64,000 nt of DNA. It comes from Aquibium oceanicum. Lineage in GTDB: Bacteria; Pseudomonadota; Alphaproteobacteria; Rhizobiales; Rhizobiaceae. The notes under the pieces are model-generated. The model was not told where the DNA came from and did not search any database. It was given only the letters and a program-made list of their open reading frames with translations. Shown here in pieces: positions 43,884 through 46,210 of this stretch (its first letter is position 1; each line of letters starts with the position of its first letter). The stretch is from contig NZ_CP018171.1 in NCBI RefSeq assembly GCF_001889605.1, forward strand, positions 1,178,001-1,242,000, in the 5' to 3' direction. A program made the position numbers and the translations under genes.

Positions 43884-45412
43884 GATGCCTTCCTCTTCCT
43901 GGCTTGTGGTTGTTGCGTGTCGTCGGACCGTACGGCCCGGTAGGCTTCCATGGCCCGGTCGCGGGCGGCGTGGTGATCCACGATCGGCGACGGATAGGTC
44001 TCGCCGAGCGTCACGCCCGCGTCCTTCAGCACCGCGGCGGACGCCTCCCAGGGCTTCTGGACGAAGCGGTCGGGAAGTTTGGCGATTTCGGGCACCCAGC
44101 GGCGGACGTAGTCGCCGCCCGGATCGAACCGTTCGCCTTGGAGAACGGGATTGAAGATGCGGAAATAGGGGGCGGCGTCGGCGCCGCTGCCCGCGACCCA
44201 CTGCCAGCTGGCGGGATTGTTGGCCGGGTCGGCGTCGACGAGCGTGTCCCAGAACCACTGTTCCCCGTCGCGCCAGTCGATCAGGAGATCCTTGATCAGG
44301 AAGGAGGCCGCGATCATGCGTACGCGGTTGTGCATCCATCCCGTGTGCCACAGCTGGCGCATCCCGGCATCGACGATCGGATAGCCGCTGAGGCCCCGCT
44401 GCCACGCTTTCAGCGCCTTCGCGTCGCGGTGCCACTCGAACGCTTCGTACTCGGGCCGGAATGCCCGCTCGCGCAGATGCGGGTTGTGGAACAGGAGATG
44501 GTAGGAGAATTCACGCCAGGCGAGTTCCTTGCGGAATTTCGCCGCGCCGGCGCCATGGAACTTCTTCAGCGCGGCGAGGATCTGGAACGGGGTGATCTCG
44601 CCAAAGGTCAGATGCGGCGAGAGACCGGAGGTTCCGGCCTTGCCCGGGATGTCGCGGCTGCGTTCGTAATCCGACAGATCGTCCTCGACGAACTCCCGGA
44701 GGCGGCGTCGGGCGCCGTCCTCGCCGGGAGTCCAGCTTTCCTGCAGGCCGCCGGACCAGTCGGGCTTCGTGGGCAGGAGTTCGAGTTCATCGAGCGCCAA
44801 GCCTTCCAGCTGACCTTTCCAGCCCTTGACCGAAGAGGGCGGGTCGATCGGGTCGCGGGGCTCCACGCTGCTCTCCAGCGCTTTCGAGAAGGGGGTGTAG
44901 ACCTTGTAGAAACCGCCAGATCCGGTCTGGAGCAGGGACGGCTCGTGCATCAGCGCGCCGTCGAAGCTTCGTGCCACGAGTTCCTTATCGCGCAGGCTCG
45001 TCTTGAGGGCCGCGTCGATGGCCGCTTCCGCCGGATCGTAGCGGCGGTTCCACAGGACCGTGTCGGCACCGCTGACCTTGATCGCCTCTTCAACGACGTC
45101 GGCCGTCCGGCCACGTTTCAGGACCAGTCCGGCGCCGGCCTTGTTCAGTGCCTTCTGCAAGCCATGCAGCGAATGGTGCAGCCACCATCGGCTCGCCGCG
45201 CCGATGGGTCGAACGCCTTCGCTTTCCTCGTCCAGAATGAAGATCGGGAGCACGGGGCGGTCGCTGTCGGCGGCGGCGGCAAGCGCGCCGTTGTCGCGGA
45301 TGCGAAGGTCGCGCCGGAACAGAACGATGACGGGAGAAGCCACGGGTCCGATGCTCACGCGCGCAGCGCCGTTGCGGCGGGATGCGGTTCTGTTTTTGGT
45401 GACACGGGCCAA
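43880..45412 (-). CDS. phr: deoxyribodipyrimidine photolyase (cryptochrome/photolyase family)
   Basis: A 510-residue photolyase. The N-terminal antenna-binding domain starts VIVLFRRDLRIRDNGAL. The C-terminal FAD domain holds TSGLSPHLTFGEITP, FRKELAWREFSYHLL, and the very typical GLSGYPIVDAGMRQLWHTGWMHNRVRM (short: YPIVDAGMRQLWHTGWMHN). It uses blue light to split pyrimidine dimers. The start is taken as TTG 45412, with GGAGGAGG just upstream; a GTG at 45358 is an alternative. An RpoE-type promoter lies 22-51 bp upstream. Confidence 0.95.
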   Translation of the reverse strand: MARVTKNRTASRRNGAARVSIGPVASPVIVLFRRDLRIRDNGALAAAADSDRPVLPIFILDEESEGVRPIGAASRWWLHHSLHGLQKALNKAGAGLVLKRGRTADVVEEAIKVSGADTVLWNRRYDPAEAAIDAALKTSLRDKELVARSFDGALMHEPSLLQTGSGGFYKVYTPFSKALESSVEPRDPIDPPSSVKGWKGQLEGLALDELELLPTKPDWSGGLQESWTPGEDGARRRLREFVEDDLSDYERSRDIPGKAGTSGLSPHLTFGEITPFQILAALKKFHGAGAAKFRKELAWREFSYHLLFHNPHLRERAFRPEYEAFEWHRDAKALKAWQRGLSGYPIVDAGMRQLWHTGWMHNRVRMIAASFLIKDLLIDWRDGEQWFWDTLVDADPANNPASWQWVAGSGADAAPYFRIFNPVLQGERFDPGGDYVRRWVPEIAKLPDRFVQKPWEASAAVLKDAGVTLGETYPSPIVDHHAARDRAMEAYRAVRSDDTQQPQARKRKAS

Positions 45413-45433
45413 CCTCCTCCGGACGGTCGAACC

Positions 45434-45463
45434 CTTCTACGCGGCTATGCCGCGGAAGGATCA
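45434..45463 (-). promoter_or_regulatory. RpoE-type promoter of the photolyase operon
   Basis: On the minus strand TGATCC (45463-45458), an 18-bp spacer and TAGAAG (45439-45434), the same layout as both promoters at rpoE. The spacer holds a perfect 6-3-6 palindrome (CGCGGC-ATA-GCCGCG), which is unusual inside a promoter and may be a second control site. Confidence 0.75.
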
Positions 45464-45534
45464 ATCCGGCCTGCCGGAGCGATGGTCGCGATCGGAAGGA
45501 TATCCTTTGCCGGCCTGGCCGATGGCGATGCCGG

Positions 45535-45574
45535 AAAAAACAACACCCGCCGGGGGAGGAGGTCCGGCGGGTGT
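45535..45574 (-). terminator. intrinsic terminator made by the last hairpin of the small-RNA array
   Basis: A perfect 11-bp GC-rich stem (45543-45553 with 45564-45574). The loop carries ACCTCCTCCC on the transcribed strand. Two bases after the stem comes a run of six U (45540-45535). It ends the DUF1127/small-RNA transcript before the photolyase promoter. Confidence 0.85.
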
Positions 45575-45660
45575 CGTTTGTGTGGCGGACACCCGGGAGG
45601 AGGTGGGTGCCGGCCTATCCGTCGTTCACTGGGAGGAGGTAGATCCCGACGGAATTCTGC
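45535..45660 (-). ncRNA. CcsR/cuckoo-type small RNA module 2 (three CCUCCUCCC hairpins)
   Basis: Three hairpins in transcription order: 45653-45618 (7-bp outer stem, internal loop, 2-bp inner stem), 45615-45584 (11 bp with two mismatches) and 45574-45543 (perfect 11 bp, also the terminator). Each exposes the same 10-nt loop ACCUCCUCCC on the minus strand (45640-45631, 45604-45595, 45563-45554). The layout and its place downstream of a DUF1127 gene match the CcsR/cuckoo RNAs of R. sphaeroides and relatives, which act in oxidative-stress control. Exact 5' ends are unknown; processing from a common precursor is likely. Confidence 0.82.
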
Positions 45661-45668
45661 AATCTGTC

Positions 45669-45806
45669 AACCTCCGGTGAGGGAGGACAGCACCCGCCGA
45701 GGGAGGAGGTTCGGCGGGTGCTGATTTGTCGGCCGGCACCCGGGAGGAGGTGGATGCCGGCCGTATCCGTCAGAACCTGGGAGGAGGTAGGCTCTGGCGA
45801 AATTCC
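45669..45806 (-). ncRNA. CcsR/cuckoo-type small RNA module 1 (three CCUCCUCCC hairpins)
   Basis: Three hairpins in transcription order: 45796-45771 (8 bp, one mismatch), 45762-45731 (11 bp, one mismatch) and 45722-45689 (perfect 12 bp). Loop copies of ACCUCCUCCC are at 45788-45779, 45751-45742 and 45710-45701. It is a tandem copy of module 2, displaced by 147-148 bp, with base changes that keep pairing. There is no U-run after its last stem, so it is probably cut out of the longer transcript. It begins some ten bases after the DUF1127 stop. Confidence 0.82.
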
Positions 45807-45814
45807 GTACTTCG

Positions 45815-45955
45815 TCAGATCGACTTGCGAGCGACGAAGGAAATGTCTCCGCGGGCAATCCCCAGATCGCTCAGTTCGCGGTTCGAAAGGCGGCTCAGCT
45901 CGTTCACGGTGTCGCGATAGCGGCGCCAGTTGCGGTAGTTGCGGACAAGGTTCAT
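45815..45955 (-). CDS. DUF1127 small protein (CcaF1-like)
   Basis: A 46-residue basic protein. It starts MNLVRNYRNWRRYRDT and then has the DUF1127 core ELSRLSNRELSDLGIARGDI. In R. sphaeroides the DUF1127 protein encoded just upstream of the CcsR small RNAs (CcaF1) binds RNA and affects their maturation. ATG 45955 was chosen over upstream in-frame codons because the family begins here and AAAGAAGA precedes it. The gene is co-oriented with, and directly upstream of, the six-hairpin array. Confidence 0.9.
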   Translation of the reverse strand: MNLVRNYRNWRRYRDTVNELSRLSNRELSDLGIARGDISFVARKSI

Positions 45956-46007
45956 AACACGTCTTCTTTCGGGTAGTTTTCGTTTCGGCTGTTCTCTTGT
46001 TGATTGG

Positions 46008-46036
46008 AAGATAGTCGCGCCCCGTCGGCATTTGAA
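46008..46036 (-). promoter_or_regulatory. candidate promoter of the DUF1127-small RNA operon
   Basis: On the minus strand TTCAAA (46036-46031), 17 bp, TATCTT (46013-46008). The -35 part also reads as CTTCAAA, close to the CTTGAAA of RpoH-type promoters, which drive the homologous operon in R. sphaeroides. The match is moderate. Confidence 0.4.
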
Positions 46037-46043
46037 GCGCGGT

Positions 46044-46080
46044 TGTTGCATAGCAGCAATGCGTTTTGTGCAATGCAACA
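46044..46080. promoter_or_regulatory. TGTTGCAT/ATGCAACA inverted repeat upstream of DUF1127
   Basis: Perfect 8-bp arms (46044-46051 and 46073-46080) separated by 21 bp; the spacer carries a second copy of GCAATGC. It lies just upstream of the candidate -35 box, where an activator or repressor would bind. The rest of the 255-bp region between DUF1127 and the DUF2157 gene shows nothing else. Confidence 0.5.
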
Positions 46081-46210
46081 TAAATTAACGGGCAAGTGAG
46101 TATCCCGCATCCCGGTATCGGAACGCGCGCATTGGCGCCATCGGCGCGATACGCGGGCGCGACATAGATTTGCCGGCATCGCGACCGAGAGCGCCCGCGA
46201 TGGATGAGGG

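Follow-up and report, generated by a model that had tools for sequence, protein, structure and literature searches.

On the minus strand of the 64 kb window (the whole stretch of DNA that was analysed) a short DUF1127 gene is followed by an array of two tandem units of an RNA that is already catalogued, αr14 (RF02344), of the NfeR1/"cuckoo" family. The reading favoured here, to which we give a probability of roughly three in four, is that a transcript activated by LsrB/VtlR yields the DUF1127 protein as well as αr14 RNAs, which would silence mRNAs by blocking translation at their Shine-Dalgarno sequences. The locus is of a known kind, and its points of interest are the tandem amplification of the RNA unit and a control site that gene and RNAs appear to share.

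The DUF1127 gene and the αr14 array

The DUF1127 gene (45815-45955, minus strand) encodes 46 aa and matches PF06568 with an E-value of 1.7e-16 (60.1 bits). Eight nt past its stop codon and on the same strand the αr14 array begins, with exact ACCTCCTCCC motifs on the minus strand at 45779-45788, 45742-45751, 45701-45710, 45631-45640, 45595-45604 and 45554-45563. The sequence-only reading of this DNA had proposed just this order, a DUF1127 gene and then six identical motifs, and is borne out: the six ACCUCCUCCC motifs of the 64 kb window all lie within the array, against a mean of 0.11 in 100 dinucleotide shuffles, none of which had six. Genome-wide (5.32 Mb) there are 66 copies of CCTCCTCCC, and outside the array only a single close pair, 11 nt apart, is seen. 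The segment 45530-45815 folds with a z of −9.15, and none of 200 shuffles was equally stable.

Unit 1 (45685-45806, minus strand) has three hairpins and scores 100.9 bits (E 1.9e-17) with RF02344; unit 2 (45538-45658, minus strand), with hairpin 1 degenerate and hairpins 2 and 3 canonical, scores 84.4 bits (E 8.9e-14). Both match the model at full length (1-123) and above its Rfam gathering cut-off of 58.8 bits, and at these E-values the hairpins do beat shuffled sequence in a covariance search, as the sequence-only reading required. With the CcsR1 model (RF02791) the same units reach 42.5 and 39.2 bits, below the cut-off of 65.3 bits, and membership of CcsR was rejected. What survives of the earlier assignment is therefore the cuckoo superfamily, as a DUF1127-linked multi-hairpin RNA with CCUCCUCCC loops, and not the CcsR type. 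Nor are three hairpins per module an oddity, as had been thought, since the published αr14 structure has three, with CCUCCUCCC unpaired in each (PMC10746234 and PMC7143759, in their available text), and three per unit are thus to be expected.

For five of the six window motifs, including all three in unit 1, the probability of being unpaired is 1.0. The fourth motif, at 0.46, belongs to the first hairpin of unit 2, the inner stem of which is degenerate and holds non-pairs flagged by cmscan as well. It is unpaired with a probability of 0.71 when unit 2 is folded alone and of 0.43 once the inter-unit spacer (45659-45684, minus strand) is added, a GGAGG of which can pair with this motif on folding; the low value is hence explained by the decayed inner stem together with competition from the spacer. 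Six loop hairpins had been counted in the initial description, and of these five hold with their motifs fully exposed while the fourth is a degenerate one. In best folds, open hairpin loops hold 5 of 6 motifs in the window and 15 of 21 in the sister species G001, where likewise the first motif of units 2-7 is unpaired with a probability of 0.66-0.75. The first hairpin is thus degenerate in the lesser units of tandem arrays, and this counts against the favoured explanation. As a separate observation, the spacer region of the window (45656-45692) folds on its own, and the G001 spacers have a different pairing, of a C-run with a G-run.

The window motif shares the anti-Shine-Dalgarno core of the 16S rRNA 3' end and extends beyond that core, so that to describe the loop as a straight copy of the anti-Shine-Dalgarno sequence was too simple.

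Hairpin 6 (45541-45576) has a U-run directly behind it (45535-45540), and by sequence and fold the two (45535-45576, minus strand) are a likely intrinsic terminator; no U-run follows the third hairpin of unit 1. A consensus terminator scan did not list hairpin 6 on the minus strand, the scan taking loops of 3-8 and hairpin 6 having a loop of 10. No separate terminator of the kind first described was found after the six hairpins, and it is likely that hairpin 6 itself terminates the transcript.

Conservation of the structure was followed in 31 aligned units, the two of the window and the 29 best units of other genomes (MAFFT, RNAalifold). Over helices 2 and 3, 93.7% of cells are paired, both partners change in 19 of the 22 pairs, and the covariation score is 0.641 against 0.267 for shuffled alignments. 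From the MAFFT alignment of these 31 units RNAalifold did not recover helix 1, and the covariation evidence is accordingly that of helices 2 and 3. When 30 units were folded singly (the best unit per genome, a favourable choice), 84 of 84 exact motifs fell in hairpin loops, whereas shuffling of the flanks left 55 of 420 there. Loops that are exactly conserved while their stems covary point to a pairing function of the loops.

Distribution and genomic linkage

Of 61 related genomes, the window's among them, 45 have matches to αr14 and 37 have them above cut-off; none of 14 named control genomes has a match. Within the window's own family at least 115 of 161 genomes show the three-loop pattern, with no hits for reversed-pattern controls, and so the occurrence of such an array outside Rhodobacter, put forward in the sequence-only reading as news, is not news. 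All five genomes examined of the genus carry αr14 above cut-off behind a DUF1127 gene. Linkage was surveyed at 30 αr14 loci, these being the best match of each of 30 of the 45 genomes with αr14. At 19 of the 30 the RNA is preceded on the same strand, at no more than 600 nt, by a DUF1127 gene (5/5 in the window's genus, 14/25 in other genera), and 11 of the 30 have αr14 without an upstream DUF1127. DUF1127 adjoining such RNAs is described as the CIN1 locus of the cuckoo RNA family (PMC10253847, available text), and the DUF1127-αr14 association is therefore already known in print; the window, where CcsR-like CCUCCUCCC RNAs accompany a short DUF1127 gene, holds a locus of this sort.

The loci of the other four of the five DUF1127 genes of the genome are without exact CCTCCTCCC and without the combined operator motif considered below; looser partial motifs are present there. 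In another genome (locus L048, G043:C130:30500-34500) four consecutive DUF1127 genes occur, three of them directly trailed by weak αr14-like matches of 31.7-45.6 bits, and fewer than two exact CCTCCTCCC motifs are found per strand.

A link to the neighbouring photolyase gene, noted at the outset, did not hold up. Flanks of about 1-2 kb, some of them truncated by the contig, were compared for another 20 loci from 18 genomes. Only one locus, that of G002, had a photolyase relative, and nine had a DUF2157 gene related to the divergent one of the window; a photolyase co-operon was rejected for flanks of this size. Among named sequences the closest relative of the photolyase lies on a contig of an uncultured Mesorhizobium sp., a MAG (84% identity), followed by Mesorhizobium sp. 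ORS3359 (66%) and M. erdmanii (65%), and we take the window to come from a relative of Mesorhizobium in Rhizobiales. The combined operator motif is absent from the photolyase loci searched (1.35 million bases, both strands counted).

A phasin gene is a second host gene for αr14. In ten of ten genomes (L162-L171), picked because their three-loop matches looked alike, a three-hairpin αr14 unit above cut-off lies between a phasin gene and a tRNA. In the window's own genome the phasin gene and tRNA are kept at the corresponding locus (L003, G000:C1:3959506-3962612), with one exact motif and a match of 44.2 bits, below cut-off. No paper on phasin-linked αr14 was found in the titles and abstract openings searched, and novelty in print is not claimed.

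Tandem amplification of the αr14 unit

The number of αr14 units varies within the genus: two in the window's species, two in G002 and seven (21 motifs) in G001, a single-contig genome, with at least two in G003 and at least three in G004, where contigs end inside the array. The G001 array (L033) is on the minus strand, with its seven tandem units and 21 CCTCCTCCC motifs running from 2812 down to 1841 and the orthologous DUF1127 gene ahead. In a tree of units, the first units form one group and the later ones another, and the first duplication therefore predates the genus, while units 2-6 in G001 agree with one another to 99-100% and so reflect a recent amplification. Among other genera, six units above cut-off are found in G183 (L172) and three in G101 (L173); both of these arrays stand behind two adjacent DUF1127 matches and have the same operator-like motif upstream as the window. 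No paper about long αr14 arrays was found in the literature searched. Amplification to seven units is here offered as an addition to a known kind of locus, with no claim of novelty in print.

The upstream region and its candidate operator

In an alignment of the upstream regions of 11 loci the position of the DUF1127 ATG is kept in 10, and a block ahead of the gene is strongly conserved. In the window this block (46050-46072, minus strand) reads TGCACAAAACGCATTGCTGCTAT, in which TGCA-N6-GCAT overlaps GCAT-N3-TG-N3-T, and is a candidate operator of the LsrB/VtlR type; the match from 46072 on the minus strand is the only one in the window. By the available text of PMC10746234, TGCA-N6-GCAT is the NfeR1 motif bound by LsrB, which activates NfeR1. 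GCAT-N3-TG-N3-T is given as the VtlR/LsrB consensus in the available parts of PMC8844928 and PMC7486931, and GCATTGCTGCTAT within 46050-46072 agrees with it; VtlR activates DUF1127 genes and AbcR (PMC12595884 and PMC7486931, likewise in part). By our own count the block agrees at 12 of 15 positions with the VtlR motif that the available text of PMC12595884 gives. A PhaR-type site for the upstream block was dropped because the published LsrB/VtlR motifs match it.

A combined operator motif, assembled from the published pair and, once the alignment had been seen, loosened to GCA[AT], lies upstream of 15 of the 30 αr14 loci, with a rate of 1/6000 in mononucleotide shuffles; in the strict GCAT form the figures are 9/30 and 1/15000. 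It is present in 14 of the 19 DUF1127-linked loci (five of the 14 from the window's genus), always 99-141 nt ahead of the nearest DUF1127 copy, and absent from the other five, and among the 11 unlinked αr14 loci it is seen once (L004). Taken by gene, 17 of 36 DUF1127 matches in αr14 loci have the motif within 400 nt. Outside of the upstream windows, 137 kb held five more matches, two before other DUF1127 genes and three with no DUF1127 behind. A search of the window's own genome with the second operator form, GCAWTGCWGCYATGCA, at up to one mismatch gave three sites, one of them exact (that of the window), against one in the reversed control, and with such numbers revealed no regulon.

A candidate promoter, CTTCAA-N17-CTATCT (46009-46037, minus strand), was read by eye, and its second-hexamer region is partly conserved. 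It resembles the alphaproteobacterial RpoD consensus CTTGAC-N17-CTATAT (PMC8844928, available text). A generic sigma-70 scan of 45400-46200 returned no promoter-like sites. Inspection of the 11-locus alignment by eye picked out the LsrB/VtlR-like block and the CTTCAA-N17-CTATCT element, and no RpoH consensus was noticed.

As for the regulator, the genome has an αr15/AbcR RNA (55.7 bits, cut-off 40) directly behind a LysR gene, which in turn follows an ORF recognised by eye as trxB-like; this order of trxB-like, LysR and AbcR is the published lsrB/vtlR arrangement (PMC12595884, PMC7486931, available parts). A GCAT-N3-TG-N3-T site 61 to 49 nt ahead of the AbcR match takes the same place as the LsrB site in PabcR1 (PMC8844928, available text). 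Against NCBIfam the LysR gene gave matches that are all far below cut-off among the best 25 of 56, and its identity as lsrB/vtlR rests for this reason on synteny.

Proposed mechanism and its alternatives

The locus would form one transcription unit, presumably read as a single transcript, which runs from the promoter through the gene of the small DUF1127 protein and the tandem pair of αr14 (NfeR1/cuckoo) RNAs to the terminator. The RNA family, its structure, the linkage to DUF1127, the conserved block upstream and the variation in copy number are established by this analysis; the single transcript, the regulator, the processing, the targets and the dosage are inferred. LsrB/VtlR, a redox-linked LysR regulator, is predicted to bind the block at about −70 to −48 relative to a putative start near 46002, and would activate a sigma-70-type promoter. 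By analogy with R. sphaeroides, where RNase E is assisted by the DUF1127 protein CcaF1, the 3' part of the transcript may be cut into units of about 120 nt; in that species the ccaF1-CcsR transcript is processed by RNase E (PMC10253847, available text). The exposed CCUCCUCCC loops would pair with the Shine-Dalgarno regions of several mRNAs and block their translation, the targets perhaps being of the NfeR1 type, which in S. meliloti are transporters and nitrogen control, and with repetition of the unit each transcript would deliver a larger dose of αr14 RNA. In S. meliloti NfeR1 regulates in trans, and its loops are redundant mRNA repressors in reporter tests (PMC10746234, available text). By that analogy a multi-target translational regulator, as had been suggested, is kept as the most likely reading. 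In a simple scan of the genome the exact loop complement GGGAGGAGG was not enriched before ATG (10 matches as against 8 for the reversed pattern), a result that speaks against the favoured reading. Whether the DUF1127 protein of the window has an RNA role is uncertain, because DUF1127 proteins of Agrobacterium and Salmonella act via protein-protein contact (PMC12501420, available text).

Among the closest known systems is αr14/NfeR1 of Sinorhizobium meliloti and relatives, with three CCUCCUCCC hairpins in some 122 nt and an LsrB-type TGCA-N6-GCAT at about −70 to −57 from the presumed start in the window and at −72 to −57 in NfeR1 (PMC10746234, available text). In contrast to NfeR1, described as a 123-nt transcript of its own, the window has two tandem units behind a DUF1127 gene, with hairpin 1 of unit 2 degenerate. 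The VtlR/LsrB regulon of Brucella and Agrobacterium has in common with the window GCAT-N3-TG-N3-T and a DUF1127 target (PMC7486931, PMC12595884), but the available parts of those papers make no mention of αr14 behind those DUF1127 genes, and binding in the window is predicted. The SmelA075 and SmelA099 models, with three and four hairpins, resemble the window in loop motif, variable stems and varying hairpin number (PMC3927594, available text), and differ from the six motifs in two units found here and the 21 of the sister species.

The ccaF1-CcsR1-4 operon of Rhodobacter sphaeroides also combines a DUF1127 gene, several RNAs and a terminator (PMC10253847, available text), and has the gene order of the window, with CCUCCUCCC hairpins between DUF1127 and the terminator. 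It might thus be supposed, the weak CcsR1 matches of both units being in line with this, that the window holds a CcsR-type system of stress-induced two-hairpin RNAs driven by RpoHI/RpoHII and concerned with C1 metabolism. However CcsR units have two hairpins (Rfam consensus) and an RpoHI/RpoHII promoter whereas the window has three per unit, the CcsR1 scores stay below the model's cut-off where αr14 fits far better, and upstream there is an LsrB/VtlR-like block with no RpoH-like hexamers noticed by eye; we regard this explanation as improbable. We give equally little credence to an array that is no more than a 3' UTR element, with hairpins that would stabilise or terminate the DUF1127 mRNA and do nothing in trans. 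The closeness of the array to the stop codon and the likely terminator at its end would suit such a role, yet exact loops and covarying stems point to loop pairing, αr14 stands without an upstream DUF1127 at more than a third of the surveyed loci, and NfeR1 does work in trans.

A sponge was the other role proposed in the sequence-only reading. As a sponge or decoy the loops would titrate an RNA-binding protein (the DUF1127 protein for example), purine-rich RNAs or free ribosomal subunits, and nothing was found in favour of this except the number of loops: many identical ones per RNA, and 21 motifs in the sister species after amplification. CcaF1 does bind RNA in R. sphaeroides (PMC10253847, available text), but the NfeR1 loops behaved in the published reporter tests as redundant mRNA repressors; a sponge is the least probable of the three. 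Translational repression by αr14 RNAs from an LsrB/VtlR-activated transcript is thus the reading we retain.

Significance for the family

Two published threads meet at this locus: in Brucella and Agrobacterium LsrB/VtlR activates DUF1127 genes, and in Sinorhizobium LsrB activates the αr14 RNA NfeR1. Here a single conserved candidate site precedes what looks like one transcription unit with both kinds of target, so that the link could be probed with one deletion mutant. It is tentatively suggested, as an idea we hold to be rather less likely than its opposite, that the DUF1127-αr14 operon in this Rhizobiales family is a dosage-tunable, redox-controlled RNA array, in which LsrB/VtlR would drive one promoter and the number of loops per transcript would be set by tandem amplification of the unit. 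The anti-Shine-Dalgarno loops per transcript would then follow the unit number, two in the window's species, seven (21 motifs) in the sister species and six in another genus. The natural arrays of two, three, six and seven units lend themselves to a direct test of whether repetition of such an RNA alters its dose or the targets chosen.
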